Shown here: in pieces, positions 3,887-48,589 of the stretch | How the letters are laid out: each line of letters begins with the position of its first letter | How positions within the stretch are numbered: the first letter of the stretch is position 1 | Virus record (IMG/VR): IMGVR_UViG_3300042397_002464 | Coordinates: 1 to 49,304 of that record | Length of the DNA: 49,304 nt | Direction: 5' to 3' (one strand) | From: a virus | Notes under the pieces: generated by a model | What the model was told of the DNA's origin: nothing | Databases searched by the model: none | Seen by the model: only the letters and a program-made list of their open reading frames with translations | Made by a program: the position numbers and the translations under genes

Positions 3887-3889
3887 TTT

Positions 3890-13850: not shown

Positions 13851-15658
<1,808 letters not shown>

Positions 15659-15662
<4 letters not shown>

Positions 15663-33083: not shown

Positions 33084-33106
33084 GCTGCCCCAATGGGGCG
33101 TTGCTT

Positions 33107-36100
33107 CTAGAAACCGCCCACGTTGCCGGTGTTCTTGCGCGTGTCTTTCTCGCCGACGGCCATGTTGGCGAACTTGTCGGCGGCCTGGTTCGACGTGAAG
33201 CCGTGCATCATGGCGCCGTAGAGCGCGCCCATCGCAGGCCCGCCGGGCGCCGACGACGCGAGCACGGCGACCATCGGCGAGAGCGTCGCTTGGTAGAAGC
33301 CCTTGGCCGCGTTCCATTCCGCCGTGTTCGTGTTCGCCGCGTTGCGCTCGCCGAACGCGCCCATCATCGCCTGCATGGCGCCGAGGAAGTAGCCCATGTA
33401 GGGACCGGCGTAGAGCCCCGTCAGATCGCGCTCGTAGCGCAAACCGGTCTGCGCCTGCACGAGCGGGTCGAACGGGCCGTAGAACGACGCGCGCGACGCG
33501 GCGAGACCGACCAGCCAGTCCCACAATTCGCCCTTCTTCTCCTTCTCTTCCCAGCGCTCGCTGTTGAAGACCGCCTCGCGAAGGATCGAAAACAGCAATT
33601 GGCCCATGAACGTCGAGGCGTAGAACGTCGTCATCGCCGCGAGCGTGCCGCCCATCGAGCGCAGCCAGGCTTTCGACGCGGGCTCGCCACCCTGCTCGAT
33701 GCGAAGCTGCGCGTCGCGGATCGTGCGCCGGTAGTTCTTGAGGACCACGTTGTTCCACATGGCATACGAGAACGACATGATGCCGAACGTCACGCGCAGC
33801 ACGGGGCTCGTCACGGCACCCAGGGGCCGGTCGGCTTTCTTGGGGTCTTGGATCGTGTGGTCCACGAGGCGGCGCAGGCCGACGCCGAGCACACGGATGT
33901 AGTTCGCATCGGGGTTGTTCGTGTCCGCGCTGTCTCGCTCGGTCTGCACCTGGCCGACGATTTGTTCGACGGGCGGCAGCCGGTCCTGCTTCGACATCCA
34001 CTCGGCGAATTGCCGGTGGTGCTGGTCTTCGATGCCGATCTCGCGCAAGTCGGCGCTCGCGATAGCGCGCTCGCTCGGCGTGGAAGACGGATCGACCAGC
34101 GTGCGGGACAGGGACCGGATCGCGTGGAACGCGCCGACCATCGCCGAGTTCGAGCGCTGGTAGCGCGTCACGGCCGCGAGGCCGTTGCGCTGGAAGAACT
34201 TGGCCGTGAGCTTCTGCGCGCTCACGCTGTCCGCGTAGTTCTGCCCGAAGCGCGTGTTCATGATCTCGTCGTGCTGGGGCGAGGCGTTGATCCCGAAAGC
34301 CATCGCGATCTCGGCAAGCTCGCGCGCGTTGCCGCGACGCACGACGTTCGCGACGTAGGTGCCGAGCGCCAGGCCCGCCGCCTTCACGTCGCGGGTCGCC
34401 GCAAGCACGGTGATCGGTTCGACCATCGAGGTCCAGACGGCGCGCGGCAACAGCGTGAGCGTGCCGATGGTGTTGAGCCAGGAGAACGCGCGCGAGATGC
34501 CCGTCGGCGTGCTGTCCCGGTTCCGACCGGCGGTGATCTGGACAAGCTCGCGCACCGTGCGCGCGTCCTCGGGCGCCAGCCCGCGACGCACGGCTTCGGC
34601 CAGCATGATCTCCTGGTAGTCCGCCTTCGACGGCGGCAGGAAGTCGCGCACGATCCGCATCGCGCCCGCGTAGGTGTCGGGATCGTGGACCTTGGGGTTC
34701 CAGCCCGTGCCCTTGCGCGTCGCCATCTTCGCCGCGAACTGGCGCACGTCGGACACGCCGCCGGGCGTGCCGAAGCGCTTGACGTACTCGACGCGGCGAG
34801 CGGCGTCCTGGACATAGCCCGCGACCAGATCGACCGGGTCCGTGACCATGTAGTCCTTCATCAGCGTGTCGGTTTCCGGCGGCAGCGCGCGCTTCTTCGT
34901 GAAGTTCGCGTCGGGCGAGCGGCCCCCGAAATCCATCGGGTCCCCAAGCTGCACGGCTTGACGCCAGGCGGCGGCCTTGTCCTGGGTCCACGCCGCGCGC
35001 GCCGGATCGTAGATCGCGTCCAGCGCGTCCTGGAGATCGTCGGACAGCTTCGCCAGGCGCTCGTCGATCTGGTCCGGGTCCGACGACGCGCGACGTTCTT
35101 TTTCGAGCTTCTTGATCTGGCGCGCGAGCTTCGCGATCCGGCGGATTTCGTCGCGGTTGTCGCGGCGGAAATCGAGACGCGCTTCGGGGCGAAGCTCGCC
35201 CATGATCTCGACCAGCGCCGCCGTGTCGAAGCGGTCGCCGGGCCAGGTGCGGCCGAACACGAGATCGTAGACCTTCGTGGCCTGCGCCTCGAAGCCCGCC
35301 GGGTCGGAGAAGACCGCCGTGTCGTCGGTCTGGCGCGGCAGGTAGTTCTCGACGAAGCCGACTTCGAGGCCCGTGCCGTCGTTGACCGTGCCGTCCAGCG
35401 TGCGGACATAGTAGAGCATGTCCTTCATCAGCCGCCGGAGATCGACGGCGAGCTTCACGACGGGTTCGCTGCTCGCCGTGGCGCGCGCCTCGTCGGGGTC
35501 CACCAGCAACGCGCGCAGCTTGTCGGTCTGCTCGGGCGAAAGATCGTCCTCGAAGCCGTGGCGCTTGAGAGCCATTTCGATTTGGGACAGGCGCTTGCGC
35601 CCGACCTGGGTAACGGCTTCCTCGAACGTCTCGCGCTGGACGCGGCCCGTGCCGGGCGCCGTCGCGACGGCCTCGCGCAGCGTCTTGAGGAAGGGTGCCG
35701 CGTCCTTCGGCGCGCGGTTCTCCAGCACGTTCCACACGCTGCGCTGCGCGTAGACGAACGCGCGCGCGCTGTCCGCCATGCGGCGGGTCCAGGGGTTGCG
35801 CGCGTCGGTGCCCTCGGCGCCGACGTTGCCTTTGAACGTCTGGCTCTTGAACATGCGAAGCTCGCGCGACCAGAACTCGAAGCTCGTGAGCGAAGGCGAC
35901 GGCGAGAGCTTGTAGAGGTTCGCGGGCGTGGCGATGTCTTCGGTCGTGCTCGGCGCCATGGCGGGCGCTTTGTCCCCGAAAGCCTGGGACACGCGCAGCC
36001 AGGTAAACAGGTTCGAGATCGACGAGAAGATCGCGGCGCGATCCGCGTCCTTGGGGAACGTCTCGGCCAGGCGGCGGTCGGCGTTGGACAGGTAGGCCGC

Positions 36101-39100
36101 ATCGCCCTTGGCGATGAACTCGTTGCCGCCGCCCGCCGCCGCGACCTTCGACGCGACGAAAGCTTCGGCGGCGCGCGCGAGCATTTCCATCGGGTTCGCC
36201 CAGTAGCCGGGATCGCCGAAGCCTTCGGAAGTCTTGGCGTAGTTCGACGCTTCGACGCCCTTGAGGACGCCGCCCTTGTTGGCGTCGAACTTGTCCAGTT
36301 CCTTCTGCGCCTTGCGCGCGGCGGGCGTGGGCTTGCCGTCGGGCCGGGTCTCCTGCGCTTCGACGACGAGCTTGGCGCGCGCGATCTGCACGGCGGCCTG
36401 GTCCTTGTAGAGCGCGCGCATGAGATCGAGCATCGCGCGCGGTCCGCTTTGCGTGGCGTCGAGCTTGCCCTTGGTCGCTTTGTCCGACGCGAAGCCCGGC
36501 TTGGCCGGGTCGATCCTGTCCATGAGAAAGTGGTCGAAAGCGTGCATCCATTCGTGCGCGAACGAGTTGGCGCGGCCGGGCATGTGGACCGAGCGCGTGC
36601 CGGGGTAGTAGGCGCCGAGATATTTGCCCCGGTACTTCTCGAACACGAGCGAGAGCGTGCCGTCGAGGCCGAGCGCTTTCTTCGGCAGGCCCAGCGCGTG
36701 CAGCATGAACTGGACGTTCTGGTACGCATCGAGCAGCGCATCGAGCGTTTCGAGCTTGTCGGCGCCCTTCGCCGCGCGCACGTCCTTGAAGCCGAACTCG
36801 TCTTTCATGAGCCGGGTGAGCACGGCGATCTGCTGCCCCTCGGGCATGAGCGCTGCCTTCTCGGGATCGAGCCCTGCGGCGCGGAACGCGCTCTGGTAGA
36901 TCGACGTGCGCGGCGTGAACGCCACTTGGGTCGTCGTGCGGGACAGGCCGCCGCGCGGCACGATGTTGTCGCCGAGCGCTTCGTCTTGCTCCAGCGCCGC
37001 GAACGTCTTGTCGGACAGGACTTCGCCGTCCGGCTTCGCTTTGCGCGTTGCGCGCTCGGGCGTGGCCGGGGGTGCCGCCGCGCCCGGCTGCCCCCCGGTT
37101 TGGCCCACGGCAGGTTTGCCGGTGGGCTCGTTCGCAGGCGCAGCGACCCGGCCCGGAGAGGACTGGCCGGGCTGCGCGGACTGCTCCTGCGAAACCGCGA
37201 AAAGGTCGTTGGTCTTGGGCGTCGTGATCGTCTTGACGATCTGCTCGGGCGTGACGCGCGCGCCGAACATGTCGCCGCCGGGCGTCTGGTTCGATGCTTC
37301 GTCAACGTAGCGGCGCAGGACTTCGGCGATCTTCGCGCGGCCCGCCGCCGTGGTGAGTTCGCCCGCCTTGTCCTTGTTGAAGAACGAACGGAACAGACCT
37401 TCGGTGACGGGATCGAGCGGATCAAACGCGTCCTGCTGCGCCACGACTTGCTGCGGCGTGCGGCCCTGCTCGCGCATCGTGCGCAGCATGCCCACGGCGC
37501 GCATGAGCTTGGGCGTCACGTCGAACGAGGGATCGACTTGCTTCGCTTCGATCAGCGAGCGCAGACGCGCCCACGCCGCCGAGGCGTCGATCAGCGCGCC
37601 CGTGACGCTCTTGGCGTTGTCGTCGGTCGCTTCCATCGCGCGCGACACGGTGTTCTGGTCGTCGTAGGCCCGCGCCAGCATGGCGCCCTGGAGACGCCGA
37701 GCGCCTTCCTGGGACAACGAACCGTCCGGGTTGACGACGGTGTTGCGCTCGGCCTGCGGCAGCTTCGCGACCCAGCCCTGGATGAACGGCCGGTTGCGCG
37801 CCGAGAGCACGTCCCCGTCCGGGTCGTAGCTCTTGAGCATGTCCGCCGAAAGCGCGTCGCGGTCGGCCTTCGCGCGCTCGGTCGCCGACAGCCCCATCGT
37901 GGCGCTTTGGTTGGCCTCGTAGACGAACGCTTTGCGGTCTTCGGGCGTGAGCGCCGACGTGCGCCGACGCACCAGGACAGGCTGTTTCTTGCCGTCGGTA
38001 GCGTAGCCCGCCTTCTGGAGCGCCTGGACATAGGCCGCGTACCGATCCGGGTTCTGCTCGGCGGCCTGGCGGATCGCGGCGACGCGACCATTGCCGCTTT
38101 CCACGATGTTGTCCGGCCCGACGATAGGCGCGCCCCGGTCGGCCTCGGCGCCCTGCATCAGGCGCTCGGGGTCCAGGTTCGCGGCGATGTTGGAAATCTG
38201 CTCGGCCGACGCGGCGCGGCTGCGGTCGCGCGGCTGGAGATCGCCGCTCGCGGCCTGTAGCTCGGCGAGATCGACGATCTCGTAGTTCGTGTCGATCTGG
38301 CGCCCGGCGGCCGTCATGACGCGCTGCTGGCGCGGCTGCGCGGGCTCTGGAGAGGCGACCGGCGCCGGGGCGGGGGTTTCAGGCTCGGGCTGCACGACCG
38401 GCGCTGTGGCGGGCTCCGGCGCGGGTTGCGGGGCCGGTGCCGCCGTTGGCTCGGGCTGGACCGGTGCGGGCGCGGGGACCAGATCGGCGAAGGCGTTGGG
38501 TGCGGCCTGCGGGGCCGGAACAAGATCGTCGAACAGGTTGGGCTGCGGGGCCGCCTGGGGCGCTTGCTCTGCGCGGCGGTCGCGCACGGCGCCCACGGCG
38601 GCGGGCACGCCCTCGACGGGCGCCATGGCGCCCTCGCCGAGCGCTTCCATGAACACCTGGCCCGGCTTTTCGATCTCGCCCTTGGTCGCAAGCTGCGCGG
38701 CGGCTTCGCCCCCGGCGCCCAGGATCATGCCCTGCGCGGGCTGCGCCAAAGTCTTGTCCACGAGTTCGCGGCGCACGGCACCGCGCACCATCTGTCCGGG
38801 GACAAGCGTGCGCGACGCGAGGCCGCCGCTCAACGCATCGGCACCGCCCACGATGCCCGCGCGCAGTCGCGCGGTTTCGCGCGCGGCGCCCATGATCTCC
38901 GGGTTCTGGAAAGCCTCGGCGAGCACCTGGGGATTGTTCACGTCCACGCCCGCGCCCTGGAGTTCTTCGATCAGCGTGCCCCCGTATTCGGCGCCGTAGC
39001 TGGACATGAACTGCGAGAGCACCGTCGCCAGCGTCGCCGCCGGAGCGCCGCCCAGGACACCGGCACCGGCTGCCGCGACCAGGCTCGGGATTTGCTGCGG

Positions 39101-39667
39101 CGCCGACTGGAACGTGACGCCAGCGGCGGCACCCAGCGGGTCCGTCTTGAAGACTTCCCACACCTGGCGCCAGTCGCCCGCGCGGTCCAGCGCTTCCATG
39201 ACGGGGCGCTGCGGGATCGTGGCGCGAAGGGCCTGCTCGTCGGCGACGCCCTGCGCGCTCGCCGCGATAGCGTCGGCGATGTTGGTCTGCGCCTGCATGG
39301 CCTGGTCGGGCGACTGCTCGCGCATGACGCGCGCGAGCCCGCCGAGAACGGGAGCCTGGCCGGGCGGCGTGTTGAGGATTTGATCGCGGGTCCCGGCGAA
39401 GCGCGAAGCAACGTCGAGCCCGAGCGCCTGGTTGCCCTGGCGCACGTTGGACATGCCGGTGCGCAGATCGTTTGCCAGGCGGGCGAACATGCTGGTGTTC
39501 GCATCGTGGGCTTCGGTCGCCGCGCGCAGCGGGTCCAGCGGATCGACCGGCGCTTCGATTGCGGCAGCGGGCGCCTGCGGGGCAGGCGCCGGAATGAGAT
39601 CGTCGAACATCCCCCCGCCTTGGCGGGTCTGGCCGGTGGGGATCAGGTCGTCGAACATTCCGGCCAT
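33107..39667 (-). CDS. Giant polyvalent virion protein (ddrB-ParB, LPD/HExxH)
   Basis: 2186 residues. Short FDDL(I/V)P repeats mark the N-terminus (residues about 5, 20, 385, 397). A ddrB-type ParB domain follows (about 470-640; IVESGNGRVAAIRQ), then a Pro-rich linker, then a polyvalent-protein metallopeptidase-like domain with HEWMH at 1038-1042 (HExxH). The last 500 residues contain hydrophobic, membrane-like stretches. The family of polyvalent proteins (as in P1 DarB) is packaged and injected with the DNA and can block host defence or act as an ejection protein. It is the last gene of the late operon, after three internal proteins, which fits. Confidence 0.8.
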   Translation of the reverse strand: MAGMFDDLIPTGQTRQGGGMFDDLIPAPAPQAPAAAIEAPVDPLDPLRAATEAHDANTSMFARLANDLRTGMSNVRQGNQALGLDVASRFAGTRDQILNTPPGQAPVLGGLARVMREQSPDQAMQAQTNIADAIAASAQGVADEQALRATIPQRPVMEALDRAGDWRQVWEVFKTDPLGAAAGVTFQSAPQQIPSLVAAAGAGVLGGAPAATLATVLSQFMSSYGAEYGGTLIEELQGAGVDVNNPQVLAEAFQNPEIMGAARETARLRAGIVGGADALSGGLASRTLVPGQMVRGAVRRELVDKTLAQPAQGMILGAGGEAAAQLATKGEIEKPGQVFMEALGEGAMAPVEGVPAAVGAVRDRRAEQAPQAAPQPNLFDDLVPAPQAAPNAFADLVPAPAPVQPEPTAAPAPQPAPEPATAPVVQPEPETPAPAPVASPEPAQPRQQRVMTAAGRQIDTNYEIVDLAELQAASGDLQPRDRSRAASAEQISNIAANLDPERLMQGAEADRGAPIVGPDNIVESGNGRVAAIRQAAEQNPDRYAAYVQALQKAGYATDGKKQPVLVRRRTSALTPEDRKAFVYEANQSATMGLSATERAKADRDALSADMLKSYDPDGDVLSARNRPFIQGWVAKLPQAERNTVVNPDGSLSQEGARRLQGAMLARAYDDQNTVSRAMEATDDNAKSVTGALIDASAAWARLRSLIEAKQVDPSFDVTPKLMRAVGMLRTMREQGRTPQQVVAQQDAFDPLDPVTEGLFRSFFNKDKAGELTTAAGRAKIAEVLRRYVDEASNQTPGGDMFGARVTPEQIVKTITTPKTNDLFAVSQEQSAQPGQSSPGRVAAPANEPTGKPAVGQTGGQPGAAAPPATPERATRKAKPDGEVLSDKTFAALEQDEALGDNIVPRGGLSRTTTQVAFTPRTSIYQSAFRAAGLDPEKAALMPEGQQIAVLTRLMKDEFGFKDVRAAKGADKLETLDALLDAYQNVQFMLHALGLPKKALGLDGTLSLVFEKYRGKYLGAYYPGTRSVHMPGRANSFAHEWMHAFDHFLMDRIDPAKPGFASDKATKGKLDATQSGPRAMLDLMRALYKDQAAVQIARAKLVVEAQETRPDGKPTPAARKAQKELDKFDANKGGVLKGVEASNYAKTSEGFGDPGYWANPMEMLARAAEAFVASKVAAAGGGNEFIAKGDAAYLSNADRRLAETFPKDADRAAIFSSISNLFTWLRVSQAFGDKAPAMAPSTTEDIATPANLYKLSPSPSLTSFEFWSRELRMFKSQTFKGNVGAEGTDARNPWTRRMADSARAFVYAQRSVWNVLENRAPKDAAPFLKTLREAVATAPGTGRVQRETFEEAVTQVGRKRLSQIEMALKRHGFEDDLSPEQTDKLRALLVDPDEARATASSEPVVKLAVDLRRLMKDMLYYVRTLDGTVNDGTGLEVGFVENYLPRQTDDTAVFSDPAGFEAQATKVYDLVFGRTWPGDRFDTAALVEIMGELRPEARLDFRRDNRDEIRRIAKLARQIKKLEKERRASSDPDQIDERLAKLSDDLQDALDAIYDPARAAWTQDKAAAWRQAVQLGDPMDFGGRSPDANFTKKRALPPETDTLMKDYMVTDPVDLVAGYVQDAARRVEYVKRFGTPGGVSDVRQFAAKMATRKGTGWNPKVHDPDTYAGAMRIVRDFLPPSKADYQEIMLAEAVRRGLAPEDARTVRELVQITAGRNRDSTPTGISRAFSWLNTIGTLTLLPRAVWTSMVEPITVLAATRDVKAAGLALGTYVANVVRRGNARELAEIAMAFGINASPQHDEIMNTRFGQNYADSVSAQKLTAKFFQRNGLAAVTRYQRSNSAMVGAFHAIRSLSRTLVDPSSTPSERAIASADLREIGIEDQHHRQFAEWMSKQDRLPPVEQIVGQVQTERDSADTNNPDANYIRVLGVGLRRLVDHTIQDPKKADRPLGAVTSPVLRVTFGIMSFSYAMWNNVVLKNYRRTIRDAQLRIEQGGEPASKAWLRSMGGTLAAMTTFYASTFMGQLLFSILREAVFNSERWEEKEKKGELWDWLVGLAASRASFYGPFDPLVQAQTGLRYERDLTGLYAGPYMGYFLGAMQAMMGAFGERNAANTNTAEWNAAKGFYQATLSPMVAVLASSAPGGPAMGALYGAMMHGFTSNQAADKFANMAVGEKDTRKNTGNVGGF

Positions 39668-40954
39668 TTACAGTCCCTCGGGGTCGATCCCCATTTCGCG
39701 AAGACGCTTCGAGACGGCATCGCGGGGGGCACCCTTGGCGATAGCGTCGCGGGCCTGTTGTAGCGCATCGTTGGGCGCGTTTCCAGACTGCGCAGGACGC
39801 GCGGGCGCCGAAGGTTGCGCGGGCGCCGAAGGTTGCGCGGGCGCCTGCTCGGGTTGGCGGAAGCCCGAAAGCTTCCGGTTGCCGATGATGCCCTTGGTTT
39901 CCACGTTCTCCTTGGGGCCGAGCGTCGAGACAACGCTATCCACGGCGGACGCAATATCGCGCGTGCGCTGGAACTCGGCGGTCGCCTTGGGCACGAGCCC
40001 GTCCAGGAACTCGGGCGTCGGCGCGAAGCCGTATTGGCGCTCGATGCGCGACGCGAGTGCGGCACGCGCGGCGGCGGCGTCGCGGTCCCGAACGACGGGG
40101 GCCTGCGCGCCGCGCCCCGAGCCGTTGCCGCCGCGCGCTTGCGCGGCCTGCACCTGCCCGTCGGCGCGCACTTTCGCGGCGTCCACGCCCGCCCGCGCGC
40201 CGATCTCGGCGGCGCCCGTGCGCGCGGCGGCGCCGATGCCCGCCACGTCGCGGGATGCTTCGCCGCGAATGTCGGCCGAGAGCCCCTGGGGCGCGATCAG
40301 CGCCATGATGCCGCGCGTGAGATCGGTGCTGCCATCGACGAGCCCCGGCGCGAGATTGTTGACGACGCGGCCCCGCGCGGTCGTCTCCGTGTCCCGGCCC
40401 GAGATCGCGGGCAAGCCCGAGCCCTGGGGTGCTGCGACGTTCTCGCCGGGGGCAGCGCTGCGCTGGCCCATGACGACAGGACGCGACTGCCCCATGGCCG
40501 CCGCGCGCTGGGGCGCCATGACCGCCGCCTGGTTCTCGCCGAGCACGAGATCGCGGGTGAGATTGCCCTGCTCGGTGTTCTGCCAGGACTGGACGCCGGT
40601 GCCCACCTGGAGACGCGCCTGCTGCTCGGGCGTGAGCGTCGAGCCCGGCAGCGAACCAGCACCCGCGACGAAGCCCGGCCCGTACTGGAGCGCTGCGCGC
40701 CCGCCGCGCGCCATGAGAGCCATGGCTCCCGCGAGATCGCCCGACGCGAGGCGCGTCGATGCCTCGGTCATGGCGGCGCGTTCGGCCTGCAATTCCTGCA
40801 CGCGCTGCCGGTCAAACTCGGCGTTGGCGGCGAGATTGTCCATCTGCGCGCGGCGATAGAGGACCGTCGCTTCGCGCGTCGGGTCCGGGAAAAGCCCCCG
40901 AGCGAGCGTGGCGAGGCCCTGCGCCAAGTTGTTGTCCTGTCCGAAGCTCGGCAT
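39668..40954 (-). CDS. Internal virion (ejection) protein
   Basis: 428 residues, adjacent to the polyvalent gene (stop and next start touch). N-terminal helix-rich (LATLARGLFPDPTREATVLYRRAQMDNLAANAEFDRQRV), a long Ala/Gly/Gln-rich centre and a C-terminal APRDAVSKRLREMGIDPEGL motif, often seen at the end of injected phage proteins. The order matches the internal core proteins of podoviruses. Function is inferred from position and composition. Confidence 0.7.
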   Translation of the reverse strand: MPSFGQDNNLAQGLATLARGLFPDPTREATVLYRRAQMDNLAANAEFDRQRVQELQAERAAMTEASTRLASGDLAGAMALMARGGRAALQYGPGFVAGAGSLPGSTLTPEQQARLQVGTGVQSWQNTEQGNLTRDLVLGENQAAVMAPQRAAAMGQSRPVVMGQRSAAPGENVAAPQGSGLPAISGRDTETTARGRVVNNLAPGLVDGSTDLTRGIMALIAPQGLSADIRGEASRDVAGIGAAARTGAAEIGARAGVDAAKVRADGQVQAAQARGGNGSGRGAQAPVVRDRDAAAARAALASRIERQYGFAPTPEFLDGLVPKATAEFQRTRDIASAVDSVVSTLGPKENVETKGIIGNRKLSGFRQPEQAPAQPSAPAQPSAPARPAQSGNAPNDALQQARDAIAKGAPRDAVSKRLREMGIDPEGL

Positions 40955-40966
40955 GGTCTGTCTCCC

Positions 40967-41713
40967 TTAGAACGGCGAGCCGAAGCCGAAGCCGCCAGGC
41001 GCGTTGGAAAGCCCCGTGGAGCGCGCGGTGAATTCGGCGCCCTTGGAAGGACCGCCCCCGCCGCCGAACGGGTTGAACCCTTTGCCCCCGGCGTACATGC
41101 CGATCCCGCCGAGCGTGGACAGCACGGTCCCGAGCGTCGTGTCCGGCGCGCCGACCCGTGCCGCCGGGATGTTCGTTTCCTGGTCGGCGAGCGCCATCGA
41201 CGCGCGCCGCAAACCGGCGTTCTGCGTGATCGACGAGTTCGCGAGAGCCGTCGCGAGATCGTTGCGGTTCTGCAATCCGCCGAAGGCTTCGAGCCGCGCA
41301 CGCGCCGCGATCTGCCCGCGCGCGCGGCCGAGGAAGTCCGCGAGGTCTTTCTCGGCCTGGCCCTTCACGACCTGGTCGGTGCCCTGCGAAGGCAGCAACG
41401 CGACGCGGTTCGGGTCGGCGGCGGCGGGCACGTTGGCCGCGTAGCTCGTCTCGCGGCGCGCACGCTCCTGGTCGAGCGAAGCTTGCTGCGCTTCGAGCGT
41501 GTTGCGGTCTTCCTCGCCGGAAACGGCCGCGCGCGATTGGCGCGCCATTTCGTCCTGGCGCGCGTTCTCGGCCGTGCGCTTCGAGCGCGAGAACGCAGCG
41601 GCGTCTTCGTTGGCCGCGTTCTGGCGTTTCACATAGTCGCCCTGCGCCTGCATGTTCATCAGCGTGCCGATGCCCGTGAGGGCCGCGCTGCCGATGGAAA
41701 CCGGATCGCACAT
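40967..41713 (-). CDS. Internal virion protein (T7 gp14-like in position)
   Basis: 248 residues. MCDPVSIGSAALTGIGTLMN is a typical start of podovirus internal core proteins, followed by a helical coiled-coil (EDRNTLEAQQASLDQERARRE) and a Gly-rich C-terminus (GGKGFNPFGGGGG). Gene order beside two other Ala/Gln-rich helical genes supports an ejectosome role. Confidence 0.7.
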   Translation of the reverse strand: MCDPVSIGSAALTGIGTLMNMQAQGDYVKRQNAANEDAAAFSRSKRTAENARQDEMARQSRAAVSGEEDRNTLEAQQASLDQERARRETSYAANVPAAADPNRVALLPSQGTDQVVKGQAEKDLADFLGRARGQIAARARLEAFGGLQNRNDLATALANSSITQNAGLRRASMALADQETNIPAARVGAPDTTLGTVLSTLGGIGMYAGGKGFNPFGGGGGPSKGAEFTARSTGLSNAPGGFGFGSPF

Positions 41714-41725
41714 GCTCGTGCTCCT

Positions 41726-42364
41726 TTAGTTGACCACGCGGTCGCGACCGCCGCCGAGCGCGCTGTTCGACCGCGCGCCGAGCGCGTCCGCCAGCCGCTT
41801 GTCCTGCGTGCCCTGGAGATACTGGCCCACGCCCTGCGCCGCGTTGCCGAGAAGCTGGCCGAGCGGCGAAAAGCTGTTCGGCGTGTTCTGGATCAGCGTC
41901 GCGCGCGCGAGCGAGTTGTTGTAGGCCGCATCCGGGTCCGCCGCCGCGTTGAGTTGGTCGATCAGCGTGTTGCGGCTGTTCGCGACCGACGTGCGAAGCT
42001 GCTGCGCCTGGTTGTCCGCTTCGGACACGAGCCCCGAGCGCTGGAGTTCGTAGTCCTGCGTGAGACGGCCCAGGCGCTCGGTCGCCGCCGACGAGCGAAG
42101 CTGCCCGGCGTTGCCCAGCGCGAACGTGAGTTGCTTGCGCGCTTCGGCAAGCTGCTGGTCGAGTTGCGGGATCGCGTAGTCGAGATACGCCTGGCGCCGC
42201 TGCCCGTAGAAGTTGTCGTCGAAGCGCCCGAAGTTCTGGTCGATGCGCTCCGTGCCCGCGAGAATGTCGGCCTTGCGCTTTTCTTCGCGCTGCCGAGCTT
42301 CCTCTGCCTGCCGCCGCTGTTCGTCCACAGCCGCCGAGTTGCCGCCGCCGCCGCCCTTGCACAT
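41726..42364 (-). CDS. Internal virion protein, helical
   Basis: 212 residues starting MCKGGGGGNSAAV. A long charged helix (DEQRRQAEEARQREEKRKADIL) and Gln/Ala/Leu-rich body suggest a coiled-coil internal protein. It lies between the gp13-like gene and the gp14-like gene, as in podovirus ejection cassettes. No specific family recognised. Confidence 0.65.
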   Translation of the reverse strand: MCKGGGGGNSAAVDEQRRQAEEARQREEKRKADILAGTERIDQNFGRFDDNFYGQRRQAYLDYAIPQLDQQLAEARKQLTFALGNAGQLRSSAATERLGRLTQDYELQRSGLVSEADNQAQQLRTSVANSRNTLIDQLNAAADPDAAYNNSLARATLIQNTPNSFSPLGQLLGNAAQGVGQYLQGTQDKRLADALGARSNSALGGGRDRVVN

Positions 42365-42365
42365 T

Positions 42366-42830
42366 TCAGTTCTCCCACACGAAGGGAATGAAGTTTTCCC
42401 GGTTGCGGCCGAAACCCCGGATCATGGGTTCCGTCTTCGCGCCGAGGCTCGAAAGCCAGCGATGGGCGTCGTCGTGCCCTTCGATGGAATGGCACTGTCC
42501 ACGGTGTCCGCCCTGGTTCTTGATCGCCGGGATCATGAAGCGCAGGACATGCCGCGAGAGCGTGATGACGACGCGCGGGAACTCGTCGGTCCCGAACGCG
42601 AACAGGTTCCAGACGCCGGGCCACATGGGCATGGCGCCGATGACGGCGGCAGGCGTTTCGCCGTGGTAGGCGACCCACGAAAAGCCCGGCACGCGCAGCA
42701 CGTCGGCGGCCACTTCGTCGGGGTCGTCGTTCCAGCGGCACGCGAAGATTTCCTTGCGGTCCCACTCGCGCATGTTGCGCGCGACCTGGAAGACGTGGTC
42801 TTCGGGGCACTCGGGGACAGTGCGCAACAT
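42366..42830 (-). CDS. T7 gp13-like internal protein (DUF2833, GNAT fold)
   Basis: 154 residues. The ATG at 42830 overlaps the nozzle stop (ATGA); the longer frame upstream is a shadow. It has the opening of T7 gp13-type proteins (RTVPECPEDHVFQVARNMREWDRKEIFA) and a GNAT-like core (ETPAAVIGAMPMWPGVWNLFAFGTDEFPRVVITLSRHV). T7 gp13 is needed for assembly of the internal core and is lost from the mature particle. It is the first gene of the ejection group. Confidence 0.75.
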   Translation of the reverse strand: MLRTVPECPEDHVFQVARNMREWDRKEIFACRWNDDPDEVAADVLRVPGFSWVAYHGETPAAVIGAMPMWPGVWNLFAFGTDEFPRVVITLSRHVLRFMIPAIKNQGGHRGQCHSIEGHDDAHRWLSSLGAKTEPMIRGFGRNRENFIPFVWEN

Positions 42831-45202
42831 CAGCCCGTCTCCCCGCCTTCGTAGTGGAGAATGAGATTGGAGATCGTCGCCGGGCCGTTGCCCTGGTGGA
42901 CGAAGCGAAGGCTCGCGTGCGTGCCCACCAGCGCTACCGACACGCGGCCGAGGCCGTAGGTCGTGCGCGCGATGGTGCCGATAAGGTCGCGCGTTTCCGG
43001 GTTCGCCGGGTCGGTGCCCATGTGGACTTCCCAGGAGCCCGAGCACCCGAGGTCGATGGAATGGAAGGACTTCTCCGTGGCCGGGCTGCGCGCGTCGATC
43101 AGCGGCGGCACGATCTCGACGGGGTAGTTGTTGCCGAAAGTCGCGTTGTCGGCGCCGCCGTAGCGGTAGATCGTATCGCCCGAGCGCACGACGATCTGGT
43201 CGTTCTGCACGTCGATGTGGTCGATGGGGAAGCCCGGCTCGTAGATGGACCACGCGGAGATTTTGGACGCCGGGAAGAAGCTGAAAACGTAGAGCTTCAG
43301 CCCGAGCGCCAGAAGGAAACGCCCGTTGACGGGCTCGATCCCGGACACGGCATCGGCGACGGCATCGCCGAGGGTCGCGATGTCCGCCGCGATGAGATCG
43401 TCGATGGGCGTGCCCACGTCGTTGACGGCGGCCACGTTGGAACTGTCGCGGGCGCGCAGGGACCGGAGCCCGCTGTCCGAAAGGAAGAACACGTCGGCGT
43501 TGCCGTACTGGCGCACGGCGCGGCCCGCGATAGCGCCGCCGTTCTTGAGCGTCTGGTAGGACACGTTGCCCGCCGGGTCTTGCGTGACGGTCCAGATTTG
43601 GACCGAGCGGCGGCCGAAGATCGCGATCTTGTCGTAGTAGGTTTCGACGGCGACGAGATTTTCCGCCTCGCCGTCCTGGATGCCCATGTTGATGAAGCCC
43701 GCACCGGCGGCACCGTTCGGCTGCCACGCGGTCGGAACGCCCGTGCCCGAGAAATGCAGTGTCTTGCCGGACACCGAATAGATTTTGGCCTTGTGCGTGA
43801 GAACGACCGTGCCGGGCGGGGACACGCCGCCGGGGTCGGCGCCGCCTTCGAGCGTGCCCGACGCGGGGCTCACCGCAACGTCGCCAGCGGACACGACGGC
43901 GTAGGACCGGCCGTTGGCTGCGACGCCGGGAGTGTTGGCCGCGATGGTCACGGTGTCGCCCGCCGCCGAGGCGACGTATTCGGGGCTGGACACGAACGAG
44001 TTGATCTGCGCCGCGATAGCCGTCGCGGTCGCTTCGTCGTTGGTCGCCCACGAGATCGTCGTGTTGAGAATTTGCACGCCCGCGACGGTGATCGACGAGA
44101 TCGTCGCCGTCGCGACGCCGCCCGCGAACGCGGCGGGCGTGGAAGTCGTGACGTTGTTGGCGGTGATCGCGGGGACGAAGCCGTTGCTGCCGGAGCCGAT
44201 GGGGCCGAGGATCGTGACGGTCGCGCCCGTCGAGGTCGCGGTGTAGTCCGGACTGGACGTGTGGGCGTTGATCCGCGCGGCGACGAGCGCCGCCGTGTTG
44301 TTGTTGCTCGTCGTCCACAGGACAGGCGTGCCCAGGATGTCCACGCTGTTGACCGTGATCGACGTGATTTGGTTGGGCAACGCGCCGCCGGACAGCGCCG
44401 CAGGCGCCGAGGCGGTCGCGGTGCCGCCCACGGTCACGACGGGCACGACGCCGTTCTGCGCCGTGCCGATGGGGCCGGTGATCGTGACGGTGTTGGTCGA
44501 AGCGACCGCCGCGAACTCGGGGTTGGACGCGAACGAATTGATCTGCGCCGCGACGAGCGTGGCCGTGTTGTTGTTGCTTGTCGTCCACAGGACGGGGGCG
44601 CCCAGGATATTCACGCCGCCCACGGTGACGGACGTGATTTGGTTCCCCGCGCCCGCCGTGCCGCCCGTGATCTGGAAACTCGTCGTGGCGCCCGTGCCAG
44701 CGCCAGCCGTGCCCGCAGTCACGTTGAAGGACGTGGACGGCCGCACGCCGCCCGCGTTGGGGCCGCCGCGCACGGCGAAAGCCGCGCGGGCCGAGCCGTC
44801 GTACCAATCGACGACGCGAGCGCCGTCGTAGAAATGGAAGACGCTGCCGTCGGCGAATTGCGCCGTGACGTAGATTTTGCCGTCGAACACGTCGTAGTCG
44901 AGAACCTTGGACAGCGCCTCGCCGGTCGGATGCTGGAGACGCTGGTAGGTCACGCCTGCCGGGACGCCGCCGGGCGTCGCCGCGTGTCCGAAAACGAAGA
45001 TGCCTTCGGCCAGCACGGCGAGGCCCTTGGTCTGTCCGGCCGGGAGCGTCTTGTCCGGAACGAACGCCTTGCGCTTGTGGATTTCGCCGCCCGCCGTGAT
45101 GTGCGCGTTGCGCAGCACCCACAGCGATCCCGCCGCCGCAGTCAGGATGGACTTGCGGCGGTCGAGGCCGAGACGGAAATCTTCGATGATGACCTGGGGC
45201 AC
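42830..45202 (-). CDS. Tail nozzle / tubular protein B-like, with insert of tandem repeats
   Basis: 790 residues. The start (MPQVIIEDFRLGLDRRKSILTAAAGSLWVLRNAHITAGGEIHKRKAF) and the end (DHIDVQNDQIVVRSGDTIYRYGG ... VHMGTDPANPETRDLIGT) are typical of podovirus nozzle (gp12-type) proteins with a beta-propeller. Between about 180 and 450 there are three repeats of about 90 residues (ITSVTVGGVNILGAPVLWTTS and relatives). Follows the gp11-like adaptor, as in T7. The repeats are likely beta-rich decoration domains on the outside of the tail. Confidence 0.8.
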   Translation of the reverse strand: MPQVIIEDFRLGLDRRKSILTAAAGSLWVLRNAHITAGGEIHKRKAFVPDKTLPAGQTKGLAVLAEGIFVFGHAATPGGVPAGVTYQRLQHPTGEALSKVLDYDVFDGKIYVTAQFADGSVFHFYDGARVVDWYDGSARAAFAVRGGPNAGGVRPSTSFNVTAGTAGAGTGATTSFQITGGTAGAGNQITSVTVGGVNILGAPVLWTTSNNNTATLVAAQINSFASNPEFAAVASTNTVTITGPIGTAQNGVVPVVTVGGTATASAPAALSGGALPNQITSITVNSVDILGTPVLWTTSNNNTAALVAARINAHTSSPDYTATSTGATVTILGPIGSGSNGFVPAITANNVTTSTPAAFAGGVATATISSITVAGVQILNTTISWATNDEATATAIAAQINSFVSSPEYVASAAGDTVTIAANTPGVAANGRSYAVVSAGDVAVSPASGTLEGGADPGGVSPPGTVVLTHKAKIYSVSGKTLHFSGTGVPTAWQPNGAAGAGFINMGIQDGEAENLVAVETYYDKIAIFGRRSVQIWTVTQDPAGNVSYQTLKNGGAIAGRAVRQYGNADVFFLSDSGLRSLRARDSSNVAAVNDVGTPIDDLIAADIATLGDAVADAVSGIEPVNGRFLLALGLKLYVFSFFPASKISAWSIYEPGFPIDHIDVQNDQIVVRSGDTIYRYGGADNATFGNNYPVEIVPPLIDARSPATEKSFHSIDLGCSGSWEVHMGTDPANPETRDLIGTIARTTYGLGRVSVALVGTHASLRFVHQGNGPATISNLILHYEGGETG

Positions 45203-45907
45203 CTAGTTCGTCCCCTTCATGGGCATGTAGTCGATGCCCACGCGCGCACGCGCGCGGTCGTTGCTGCCCATGCCGATGCCGAAATTGCCGAGCTTGTCCC
45301 CGGACTGCGTGGCCTTGATGCGCGCCAGGATCGCCTTGGCTTTCTCCAGCATCAGGTTCGCGCGCTGGGACTTCTGCTCGGCGAGAATTTCGGCGGCGGC
45401 GTAGAAGACGATGAGATCGCCGTCGAGTTGGCAAACGTCGCTTTCCTCGACCATCTGCACGAGCGTCTTGCGGCCCTGCATACGCATGGTCCCGGACTGG
45501 TTCGGGACCGGCCACACTTCGATCATGTTCGTCTCGCCGACGTGATCCCACTTGGCGATGGGCCACGAGCGGAAATTTTCTTCGGAGTTGTAGAACGAGA
45601 GTTCGTCCGGCCCGATGCCGAAGCCGAGCTTGAGCCATTCGGTGCCGTTGCGAACCCAGGCGTATTGGATGCCGTCGAACGCCAGCCCGTTCGGGTAGGC
45701 GTAGTAGCGAACGCCCGCAAGCAGGCCAACATCGCGCTCGATCTGCTGCACAGGCCATTGGTGGTTGACCCACAGTTCGCGCTGCACGCGGTTGAGCAAA
45801 TGCTTGAAGCGGTCGCGCGTCTGCTGGCCGAGCGCCAGCGTCGCCGACTGTCCCGCCTCGTGGCGGAGATCGGTAATGAGTTGGGACAGCGGGACGCCAG
45901 CGGCCAT
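45203..45907 (-). CDS. Head-tail adaptor / tubular protein A-like
   Basis: 234 residues. LITDLRHEAGQSATLALGQQTRDRFKHLLNRVQRELWVNHQWP is the helical start of podovirus gp11-type adaptors, with AAAEILAEQKSQRANLMLEKAKAILARIKA near the end. It connects portal and nozzle. Adjacent to the nozzle gene on the same strand, in the T7 order gp11-gp12. Confidence 0.8.
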   Translation of the reverse strand: MAAGVPLSQLITDLRHEAGQSATLALGQQTRDRFKHLLNRVQRELWVNHQWPVQQIERDVGLLAGVRYYAYPNGLAFDGIQYAWVRNGTEWLKLGFGIGPDELSFYNSEENFRSWPIAKWDHVGETNMIEVWPVPNQSGTMRMQGRKTLVQMVEESDVCQLDGDLIVFYAAAEILAEQKSQRANLMLEKAKAILARIKATQSGDKLGNFGIGMGSNDRARARVGIDYMPMKGTN

Positions 45908-45913
45908 TGGGGT

Positions 45914-46351
45914 TTAGCCCTTGGTCTTGGACGGCTTCGGAATGGGCGGGACGCCGCCCGAGACGGCCGGATCGACCGGAGCAACATCGACCGGCGCCGG
46001 GGCCGGATCGACCGGAGCGGGCTCGGGCGCGGGTTCGGGCGTCGGATCGACCGGCGCCGGAGCTTCCGGGAACTTGCCCGAGCGCGTGGGCATTTCCATG
46101 CCCATGCCGGGGAAGCACTGCGCGACGAGCGGCTTGCCGAACTTGAGTTCGAGGCGCGTGCGCTCTTCCTCTTCGGTGCGTTCGACGGGCACGCAGATGT
46201 CCCGAACGTCCGTGATCGCGGCCTCGCCGTGGGCGACGATGATGCACAGATATTCGGGGAACGTGATCGGCTCGAAGCGGTCGAAGACCACCGTGTTCCG
46301 AATGTCGCCGCCGAGGGCGAGCGTGGCGGAAAGCTGTTGAAACGACTTCAT
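45914..46351 (-). CDS. Small virion-region protein with Pro-rich tail, unknown
   Basis: 145 residues. A compact N-terminal domain (MKSFQQLSATLALGGDIRNTVVFDRFEPITFPEYLCIIVAHGE) is followed by a Pro/Glu/Ala-rich C-terminal tail and a short basic end (PKPSKTKG). It lies between the capsid and adaptor genes, where head-completion proteins usually sit. I do not recognise a family. Confidence 0.65.
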   Translation of the reverse strand: MKSFQQLSATLALGGDIRNTVVFDRFEPITFPEYLCIIVAHGEAAITDVRDICVPVERTEEEERTRLELKFGKPLVAQCFPGMGMEMPTRSGKFPEAPAPVDPTPEPAPEPAPVDPAPAPVDVAPVDPAVSGGVPPIPKPSKTKG

Positions 46352-46383
46352 GGGTTCCTCTCGGGGTTCGGGGCTGAAAGCTG

Positions 46384-46411
46384 GGACGGCGAGGGTTGTC
46401 CCTCGCCGTCC
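46384..46411 (-). terminator. Hairpin after the major capsid gene
   Basis: GGACGGCGAGGG (46384-46395) pairs perfectly with CCCTCGCCGTCC (46400-46411) around TTGT. It follows the capsid stop on the minus strand. Without a T-tract it may act as a partial terminator or stabilise the capsid message. Confidence 0.55.
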
Positions 46412-46426
46412 TTCGCCATTCAGGAC

Positions 46427-47503
46427 TTAGACGATGTCGATGACCATCGAGCTATTGAGGCGCGAGGCCACGACCTGTCCGGTGCAAGTGACCGAACGGT
46501 ACAGGACGAACTGGTTGGCCGGGCGGCGAGGCGTGTGCTGCCGCTTCCACTCGTTCTGCATCTTCATCAGGGTAAGATCGCGGCTGTCCCAAATGTAGGC
46601 GCGCTTCGCGAAGCCCAGGTCGTCGAGGGTCGGATCGTAGGTGACGGTGATCCCGTCGAACTTCATTCCGCCCATCGCCGGGTCCTGCGCGCCACGGAAG
46701 CCGGACTGCGTGTAGTAGCCGTTGGCACGCATTTCGACTTCCATCGCCGAGAGGAAATCCGAACCGCAGAAGAACTGGTCCGGTTTGCCGCCGAAGCGAC
46801 GAAGCTGGCGGAAATCCTGCTGGAGGATTTGCACCAACGCGCCGCCGTTGGTCGCCGACGACGTGACGGCACCCTGCCCGCCCGCCGCCAAGTGTGCGGC
46901 CGTGCGCGCGCGGTTGCGCCACCAGGTGTTCGTCGCGCGGGACAAGCCGCCGTAGGTGCCCGTCGTCGGGTTCGGGACAATGGCGGCGCGCACGCCCGCG
47001 AGGGCCTTCGCGTCGCCCGTGCCGTCGCCCCACAGGAGCGAGTTCGTCGAGCGGGCGTACTGCTCGCCGAAGTCGAACAGCTTGCTCTCCATCAGGTCCA
47101 CGAGGATCGACATGTCGCGATCCGAGTGGTTCGACGTGCCGTTGCCGTCCGTGTCCGTGACCGACATGCCGTTGATCTTAAGCTCGGTGTGGGTGAGCGT
47201 CAGACCGATGTGGTGTTCGCGCCACGGAAACGCCGCCCGCAGGTTGTTCGCGGGCGTGTAGAAGTTCACCGTGTCGTCGTGCGTGTAGCCGCGAAGAGTG
47301 TCGTTGACACCCGCCGCGCCGAACGCGCCGACGATGCCGAGCGAAATATCGCCCTTGCCGCCGGGGAACTGCTTGGACTTGCCCTCGAAGACGGCCAGGA
47401 GCGGCTTGTCCTGGATCGTCTGTTTGAAGGTGCTGCCCTTGTTGAGATAGTAGTCCAACATCGAGTTCGCGATGTTGGTGAGTTCGCCTGCTGTAAAAGA
47501 CAT
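46427..47503 (-). CDS. Major capsid protein
   Basis: 358 residues, the usual size. MSFTAGELTNIANSMLDYYLNKGSTFKQTIQDKPLL at the start, the E-loop-like GGKGDISLGIVGAFG, and DLMESKLFDFGEQYARSTNSLLWGDGTGD and MVIDIV later are typical of HK97-fold major capsid proteins of podovirus- and siphovirus-like phages. It forms the shell of the head. The gene follows the scaffold gene by 12 bp, the normal order, and is followed by a hairpin. Confidence 0.88.
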   Translation of the reverse strand: MSFTAGELTNIANSMLDYYLNKGSTFKQTIQDKPLLAVFEGKSKQFPGGKGDISLGIVGAFGAAGVNDTLRGYTHDDTVNFYTPANNLRAAFPWREHHIGLTLTHTELKINGMSVTDTDGNGTSNHSDRDMSILVDLMESKLFDFGEQYARSTNSLLWGDGTGDAKALAGVRAAIVPNPTTGTYGGLSRATNTWWRNRARTAAHLAAGGQGAVTSSATNGGALVQILQQDFRQLRRFGGKPDQFFCGSDFLSAMEVEMRANGYYTQSGFRGAQDPAMGGMKFDGITVTYDPTLDDLGFAKRAYIWDSRDLTLMKMQNEWKRQHTPRRPANQFVLYRSVTCTGQVVASRLNSSMVIDIV

Positions 47504-47515
47504 CTAAGCCCCCTT

Positions 47516-48589
47516 TTATGAAGCGGCCCGCCGCAGTCCGAGCATCGCGGCTTCCATGAGATTGCGCGGCTCGGGGCTGGCCGTGGTTGCGACCTGGGAA
47601 CTGGTGCTTGGCGAGGGGCGGGTCGGCTGCACGGCAGGACGAACCTCGCCGTACAGTTTGTTGACTTCCTCGTAGGCGTCCTTCGCGAGCTTGACGGCTT
47701 CGTCCGCGTTGCGCGGCGCACCGCGTTCGGCGGCCAAAGCCTGCGAGAACCGAAGGACAGTTCCCTGTTTGGCGGCGTAATCGGGATCGGTCTGGCGGAC
47801 GTTCGCTTCCCAAGCGGACACGCTGGACTTGATCGACACGACGACGGCATCGAGATCGCGCCGCTGCCGTTCCTGGTCGCTTTCTTCGAGACGGTTCGTT
47901 TGAAGCTGCTCGCGCGAGCGCAGGCGTGCGTAGTCGCGCGCCATGTTCTCGTCGATCAGCCCCTCGTCTACCTTCGCCTGCAAGTCCTTCGGAAGTTTCG
48001 TCCCGACGGCCTCTTGTGCGACTTCGACGTAGGGCATCACGCCCTTCAAGAACGTCTCGAAGTCTCCGCGCCGCAGAGCCGCGCCGATGTTGAGCAGAAG
48101 GTTCGTGTCGTCCTTGGAGAGCTTGTTTTGCTCCACGAAGGACGAGAACTCCTGCCCGACGGCCGCCGTCGGTTCCACTTGCGAAAGCTTCGCCAGAAGC
48201 TCCTTCTTCTCGTCGACAAGTTGGCGGATACGCTTTTGGCTGCGCCGGTCGTATCCCTTGATCTCGTCTTCGGTAAGGTCGGGGAGCTTGTCTTTGCTCT
48301 TGTCCTGCACCGTTTGGTTGGCGGCGTCCGGCTTCTCGTCCGGCTTCGCCGGGGCGGGCTCACCCGTTGCCTCGGGGTCCTTCGGCGTTTCCGCCTCGGG
48401 CTCCTTCGGCTTGAGAGCGTCCTGAACCACCTTGAGCAGTTCGGAACGATCATCGCCCTTGGTCGGCTCCGACGGGGCCGTGGATACGTCGGTCGCGGGC
48501 GTGGACGAAACGCTCGCTTCGGTCTTTACGTCCTGGGTTTGGGCCGATGCGGACGGAGCATCGGCAGCTTTTACGTCTTTGAGGTCCAC
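47516..48589 (-). CDS. Scaffolding protein
   Basis: 357 residues from a GTG at 48589 (AGGAG about 8 bases upstream). The N-terminus is low complexity and acidic (SASAQTQDVKTEASVSSTPATDVSTAP); the middle is coiled-coil (YDRRSQKRIRQLVDEKKELLAKLSQVE). Such acidic, helical, poorly folded proteins just before the capsid gene are scaffolds that direct procapsid assembly. A C-terminal basic end (MLGLRRAAS) would contact the capsid. Confidence 0.82.
   Translation of the reverse strand: MDLKDVKAADAPSASAQTQDVKTEASVSSTPATDVSTAPSEPTKGDDRSELLKVVQDALKPKEPEAETPKDPEATGEPAPAKPDEKPDAANQTVQDKSKDKLPDLTEDEIKGYDRRSQKRIRQLVDEKKELLAKLSQVEPTAAVGQEFSSFVEQNKLSKDDTNLLLNIGAALRRGDFETFLKGVMPYVEVAQEAVGTKLPKDLQAKVDEGLIDENMARDYARLRSREQLQTNRLEESDQERQRRDLDAVVVSIKSSVSAWEANVRQTDPDYAAKQGTVLRFSQALAAERGAPRNADEAVKLAKDAYEEVNKLYGEVRPAVQPTRPSPSTSSQVATTASPEPRNLMEAAMLGLRRAAS

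Follow-up and report, generated by a model that had tools for sequence, protein, structure and literature searches.

The virus record IMGVR_UViG_3300042397_002464 of IMG/VR (hereafter the window, analysed in its full length of 49,304 bases) encodes a giant protein that opens with a short motif in tandem, and g31, the protein encoded directly upstream of it, ends in a conserved tail. Across the viral loci collected here, such tags and tails predict each other, sit at the facing ends of neighbouring proteins, co-vary in sub-type and are conserved at the protein level. From sequence comparison we consider it likely that the phage is podovirus-like and that the giant protein is its gp16-type ejection protein, which would be docked to g31 through this tag and tail.

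33107..39667, minus strand: giant protein, putatively ejected and polyvalent, in the slot of T7 gene 16; 2186 residues, ATG start
39668..40954, minus strand: g31, 428 residues, in the gp15 slot, carrying the putative docking tail

N-terminal tandem tags of the giant protein

The giant protein consists, in order, of two tags, an N-terminal region, two further tags, a ParB region, a zincin and a gp16-C-like helical region of about 900 residues. The original prediction, which described a polyvalent protein with ParB-like and HExxH domains, had missed all four FDDL[IV]P/FADLVP tags, two of which are N-terminal and two ahead of the ParB domain, and also the matching tail of g31.

39638..39655, minus strand: tag copy 1, FDDLIP, residues 5-10, N-terminal
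39590..39607, minus strand: tag copy 2, FDDLIP, residues 21-26, N-terminal
38516..38533, minus strand: tag copy 3, FDDLVP, residues 379-384, internal
38474..38491, minus strand: tag copy 4, FADLVP, residues 393-398, internal

A search based on the zincin recovered a family of 76 viral contigs, 74 with the C-terminal region of about 900 residues and 50 with the ParB region. Most N-termini in this family carry a short motif repeated two to three times, and the motif differs by phage; DFRPS, PWEQ, GFTLD, NPFADL, LLSDxDVGIP, DYSxDTFGN and DPWAVV were found in place of FDDL[IV]P. When compared to shuffled sequences, an N-terminal tandem motif was supported at p<=0.01 in 24 of 46 distinct members, an undercount since start codons are misassigned in some of them (L053, L058, L067, L101); the same threshold was passed by 10 of 255 windows placed internally and, among the other ORFs (open reading frames) of these loci, by 9 of 271. 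Internally, proteins contained 14.4 copies of their own tag per 100,000 residues and 0.73 copies of the tags of other proteins. Tag copies within a gene used identical codons in 111 of 213 cases, with 103 expected from codon usage. Because copies within a gene thus use codons as if independently drawn, selection keeps the tag peptide. FDDLIP was coded in 68 ways among 119 copies.

We also scanned for two copies of FDDL[IV]P at a fixed spacing. The pair was found in 31 viral stretches, in nearly all of them at the start of an ORF, and in 13 genome contigs, mostly proteobacterial, whereas a scrambled motif of equal degeneracy gave no match. The tagged ORFs sit among virion and DNA-ejection genes and encode diverse domains (ParB, RadC, InPase, Eco57I, LPD5, PBECR, ART, GGDEF and LPD1, as well as SLT). 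A DNA scan for the DFRPS pair, for which the pattern was too loose, yielded no N-terminal pairs in real genes. Among the family loci scanned, L073 alone had the tag on more than one protein of the phage; a further contig (L032/L035) contained two tagged ORFs. In L073 (5852-6775) one tail gene is followed by two successive genes opening with an FDDLIP-type tag, and its tail protein may serve two cargoes. The idea that FDDLIP mimics the C-terminal tip of SSB was dropped, as that tip needs a free C-terminus and the tags differ between phages.

A matching tail on the upstream protein

Upstream proteins were examined because a difference in tag between two loci went along with a difference in the upstream protein. 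Although the giant proteins of L055 and L056 are 95% identical, they carry different tags, and their upstream partners share only 55% identity; L055 and L057 share the same tag, and their upstream proteins are 79% identical. In the window, g31 ends in ARDAIAKGAPRDAVSKRLREMGIDPEGL, and its last part forms the putative docking tail.

39671..39769, minus strand: putative C-terminal docking tail of g31, DALQQARDAIAKGAPRDAVSKRLREMGIDPEGL

A tail of the consensus LxxARxAIxxGAPRDAVIxRLRxxGIDPxGL ends the upstream proteins, which are otherwise diverse, in nearly all FDDLIP loci. Its GAPR element was coded in 33 ways among 47 tails. Since the codons of both tag and tail vary freely, it is the protein sequence and not the DNA that is conserved. 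Neither FDDLIP nor GAPRDAVI was found in the open-access literature, subscription papers being outside this search.

A scan for the tail alone, blind to the tag, returned 22 loci, 17 of which were new. The tail was exactly at the C-terminus in 22/22, and the next gene opened with an FDDLIP-like tag in 22/22. Over all loci, a tail profile gave 64 matches, 62 of them ending no more than 3 residues from the C-terminus; 60 of the 61 readable next genes carried an FDDL-like tag and the remaining one (L058) a tandem FDHVP. In family loci found by the zincin only, the tail was present in 9/18 with FDDL-like tags and in 0/34 with other tags (p 1.3e-5). Since FDDLIP loci served to train the tail profile, we place weight on the reciprocal scan, this family table and a scan for a tail variant containing GKDP. 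The latter yielded eight loci, of which two seem to be one and the same sequence, and the tags of all eight have five residues. The five-residue FDDLP (or FDHVP) goes with the GKDP turn in the tail and the six-residue tag with GAP or GAD, with no exceptions. If tag and tail recognise each other directly, a one-residue shortening of the tag should be accompanied by an altered tail, and the matching of sub-types fits this.

The GAPR/FDDL[IV]P and GKDP/FDDLP pairs are probably two sub-types of a docking code, with DFRPS, IFNPF and PWEQ tags and their own tails as further ones. On balance we favour the view that many tailed-phage lineages share such a modular code, in which matched tail and tag sub-types would plug any cargo into the particle. 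Outside the FDDL class, tags and upstream C-termini gave a partial Mantel correlation of 0.19, compared to 0.13 for an internal control stretch, and given this weak co-variation a general code is a conjecture. In L072 versus L086 and in other loci, the tandem motifs KRLEA, DFRPS, IFNPF and AGYSDxEI pair with distinct upstream C-termini. Many upstream C-termini paired with non-FDDLIP motifs carry an LGYSxEQA-like element.

Domain architecture of the giant protein

The 2186-residue frame at 33107-39667, originally given with no strand, could be confirmed as a single uninterrupted frame on the minus strand; the plus strand across the same positions holds a stop. Codon usage, together with homologues along most of its length, shows that the ORF did not arise by chance. 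On the plus strand opposite the giant gene, a 1719-residue open frame at 33101-38260 is probably an effect of the high G+C content at third codon positions and not a gene. A search with PADLOC gave no match.

39017..39091, minus strand: sole hydrophobic segment, residues 193-217, in the N-terminal region (hydropathy windows)
37205..38332, minus strand: region homologous to P1 DdrB, residues 446-821, 29.5% identity (sequence comparison)
within 37205..38332, minus strand: ddrB-ParB PF18763, residues 455-570 (Pfam, E 1.8e-37)
35882..36955, minus strand: putative zincin metallopeptidase including LPD1, residues 905-1262 (structure model)
36542..36556, minus strand: HEWMH, residues 1038-1042 (sequence)
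35993..36208, minus strand: LPD1 PF18796, residues 1154-1225, with E1161 and E1168 (Pfam, E 5.4e-11)
33110..35884, minus strand: C-terminal helical region, residues 1262-2186, T7 gp16-C-like (structure model and profile comparison)

The proposed domain search thus returned matches to both ddrB-ParB and LPD1. The ddrB-ParB domain, predicted earlier from the letters alone, scored 128.6 bits against a cut-off of 27.6 and contains the conserved arginine motif SGNGR at residue 524. This motif occurs in 29 of 44 N-terminal halves of the family, and the same number match the ddrB-ParB profile. HEWMH was likewise found at 1038-1042 as predicted, and the region around it models as a zincin fold (residues 905-1262; predicted local distance difference test, pLDDT, 93.2; predicted template modelling score, pTM, 0.90). 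In comparisons with known structures, the model matched an M34 domain with Z of about 11 and M4 enzymes with Z of about 6. H1042, D1045, Y1155, E1161, R1165 and E1168 are invariant across 56 sequences, whereas the invariance of NSFAHEW, the search seed, holds by construction and is not evidence. By its model, this region is a gluzincin-type zincin fold and a putative peptidase. An aspartate lies three residues past HExxH, in agreement with the phage-type zincin clade (PMC5512222). Since the invariant glutamates sit in LPD1, we regard LPD1 as the second, C-terminal half of the zincin and dropped the notion of a separate domain, as the LPD1 helix bears these glutamates of the fold. E1161 and E1168 are candidates for the glutamate that, in zincins of this type, binds zinc from a later helix. 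A zincin profile found nothing convincing among PDB sequences.

The C-terminus had been described as long and hydrophobic, which did not hold: mean hydropathy of residues 1801-2186 is negative, and 19-residue windows above 1.4 were found only at 193-217. The C-terminal region instead models as helical (pLDDT 84). Among 866 chains aligned to it, the long colinear matches with moderate root-mean-square deviation were the gp16-type core proteins of T7, E1004 and PhiM1, over 247-279 residues and with Z values that are low for helical proteins. Comparison with T7 gp16 by hhalign (E 7e-5) covered gp16 residues 761-1080 in the same register as the structural match, and a gp16-C profile gave nothing convincing against PDB sequences. 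The structural and the hhalign similarity are each weak alone, but they are concordant with the gene order, and the region looks gp16-C-like. Pfam detected no SLT match in the giant protein; because this N-terminal domain is absent, we call the protein gp16-like and not T7 gp16. The SLT domain belongs to the T7 branch, is absent in P22 and is known to be swappable (PMC8954989).

The assignment as a polyvalent protein is supported by the class-defining domains (PMC5512222) and by its position in the late gene cluster; two unrelated enzymatic domains, ParB and zincin, lie in one giant chain, as is characteristic of such proteins. Of the several effectors that were proposed, only the ParB region could plausibly be an effector of its own; the zincin is more likely to serve processing, and the C-terminal 40% resembles part of an ejectosome and not an effector. 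Judged by its gp16-C similarity and gene order, the giant protein is probably delivered into the host with the phage DNA.

The pattern of sharing among relatives indicates that the zincin and the C-terminal region form a stable core, while the N-terminal half is exchanged. The relative UUJ74515 of Microcystis phage Mae-Yong1326-1, for instance, matches the giant protein across 860-2179 only. A search of viral contigs with the C-terminal alignment (A2) returned no relatives, though the zincin search had recovered 74 contigs with the same region. In the closest relative of the ParB region (L003:8576-13102; 67% identity over 369-823), other domains and then a separate gene downstream take the place of the zincin and gp16-C-like region, which makes it a different mosaic.

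Late gene neighbourhood

The genes upstream of the giant gene lie on the same strand in an order that parallels T7 genes 10 to 16: capsid, adaptor, a 790-residue protein, phrog_308, two small proteins, g31 and the giant gene.

42830..47503, minus strand: 790-residue protein (gp12 slot), SU10-type adaptor (45203-45907) and major capsid protein (46427-47503)
42366..42830, minus strand: internal virion protein phrog_308, T7 gp13 slot
40967..42364, minus strand: two small late proteins of 248 and 212 residues, assigned to the gp14 slot by gene order only

The giant gene is the last of the internal virion genes, after the capsid, the tail tube and the gp13 to gp15 slots, which is the position of a gp16-type gene. 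Sizes in T7 and in the window are 794 and 790 residues for gene 12 and 138 and 154 residues for gene 13. Terminase and portal (1604-5494) and the capsid genes (46427-48589) lie at opposite ends of the record on the same strand, so that it probably represents a whole genome in permuted form, although the record showed no terminal repeat. On the plus strand, 14043-15662 encodes a 539-residue protein with HELAH near its start; the Mae-Yong1326-1 gene that is annotated as CobT cobaltochelatase subunit may be its relative.

A proposed docking mechanism and its alternatives

In the mechanism that we propose, polyvalent cargo (a DdrB-like ParB domain and a zincin) has been placed before a conserved gp16-C-like region. 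The g31 tail of about 33 residues, which probably folds into helices, would bind the usually tandem FDDL[IV]P motifs with which the giant protein opens. While the particle is assembled, this docking pair would attach the giant protein to the inner core and thereby allow its loading and later its ejection. Unrelated proteins could be exchanged on either side, because recognition would be confined to two short elements. In T7, the N-terminal tape of gp16 touches the C-terminal domain of gp15, with the same polarity as tag and tail, and the virion core contains a gp15 octamer and a gp16 tetramer (PMC8954989). A tail on the C-terminus in the gp15 slot and two motifs on the N-terminus in the gp16 slot therefore fit the T7 geometry, and with its two motifs each giant chain could accommodate two tail proteins. 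Once ejected, the gp16-C-like part may act at the inner membrane or in the cytoplasm, the zincin may cut the giant chain and the ParB domain may act on DNA or nucleotides (by analogy with PMC5512222 and PMC8954989). Direct binding of tag and tail, place in the virion, timing and stoichiometry are all what we infer from sequence.

Several observations weigh against this proposal. The structural matches to gp16 have Z values of just 5.6-6.1, and the hhalign probability is 63%. Tag and upstream C-terminus correlate at 0.61 in a partial Mantel test, but 0.47 is already reached with an internal control stretch, so that relatedness explains much of the co-variation outside the FDDL class. Half of the FDDL-like family members have either a divergent tail missed by the profile or no visible upstream gene. 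Moreover, tag and tail meet at a gene boundary, and joint exchange of DNA could keep both without contact. One could accordingly regard tail, stop, start and tag as a recombination linker for module exchange, conserved as DNA with no contact between the proteins; the elements do lie on the two sides of a single gene boundary, where in this record TAA directly adjoins ATG, and tag and tail were swapped together in L055/L056. We hold this to be quite improbable, as the DNA of tag and tail is not conserved, copies in tandem, as well as internal ones at 250-600, are found away from the junction, and L073 has two successive tagged genes after one tail gene.

P1 DarB has a proven N-terminal capsid signal without the tandem motif, which also tells against our proposal. 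Its first 30 residues suffice to package a reporter (PMC9024508), and the tags too are found at the N-termini of proteins that are likely ejected. The tag might therefore be a capsid-targeting signal proper that binds portal, scaffold or shell, with the tail binding the same third partner. This appears unlikely, though it is the strongest of the alternatives: the matching of sub-types and the 22/22 reciprocity are simplest if tag and tail touch, and the absence of such a motif from P1 DarB counts here as well. The zincin might also recognise or cut the tags of its own chain, as in the self-processing proposed for P1 DdrB. The tags at 379 and 393 do lie at a domain boundary, and the zincin was proposed to process polyvalent proteins (PMC5512222). 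However, LPD1 was present in just 1 of the 31 FDDLIP-tagged ORFs, a cut at residue 5 releases nothing and the tail is left unexplained, which makes this explanation less probable still. That the giant is a plain polyvalent or ejection protein of known kind, with repeats that are low-complexity noise, is scarcely credible: linkers rich in alanine and proline are common in the giant protein, but the scrambled control (0 versus 31), the reciprocity of tail and tag and the shuffles all contradict it.

The proposal bears on the way in which giant polyvalent proteins are chosen for the virion; the short signal of P1 DarB has no known receptor. If docking is correct, the matched tail is a candidate receptor for the tag, and the exchange of effectors at one locus is explained. 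Found in dozens of phage proteins that are otherwise unrelated, the pair would act as plug and socket for virion cargo, would provide a sequence rule for spotting ejected proteins in metagenomes and could be developed into a two-part means of placing selected proteins in phage heads.

Comparison with known systems

By its domains, the giant protein is a further member of the polyvalent class described in 2017. Giant ejected proteins and N-terminal loading signals as such are known, whereas the matched two-protein code is likely, though not certainly, new. With the polyvalent proteins of Iyer et al. 2017 (PMC5512222) it shares the DdrB-like ParB domain, the HExxH zincin with its aspartate, LPD1, the multidomain chain and the late context; it adds the gp16-C-like region and tandem tags matched by the tail of a neighbour. 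Tandem motifs, packaging signals and gp16 are not mentioned in the main text of that paper. P1 DdrB has in common the ParB region and an HExxH peptidase motif further on, but it is 995 residues long, its peptidase falls outside the A3 profile, and it has neither tandem tag nor gp16-C. T7 gp16 and gp15 share the gene order and the C-terminal helical region, whereas T7 gp16 has an N-terminal SLT domain and no tandem tag at its start, and gp15 has 747 residues compared to 428 in g31.

The Mae-Yong1326-1 protein UUJ74515 shares residues 860-2179 at 38% and the same gene order. It differs in its other N-terminal half and in a DPWAVV tag present twice, and no FDDL-type tail lies upstream. The genome of this phage (L002, OP028995.1) has 72% G+C, podovirus-like late genes and several best hits that are alphaproteobacterial. 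The phage was described with a flexible tail of 340 nm and a Microcystis host (PMC9503304), and the genome and the imaged particle may be different phages.

For the Dar proteins no common signal was found, and P1 DarB has a short one (PMC9024508). T4 internal proteins and P1 DarB have capsid-targeting sequences that resemble the tag in being short N-terminal stretches presumed to load the protein into the head. These signals are single, phage-specific and without a known partner tail, whereas the tag described here is tandem, common to unrelated proteins and partnered.

In the docking pairs of modular synthases, a C-terminal element of one protein reads the N-terminal element of the next product. 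The likeness to tag and tail is one of arrangement, for which we do not claim homology, and the setting here is the phage virion.

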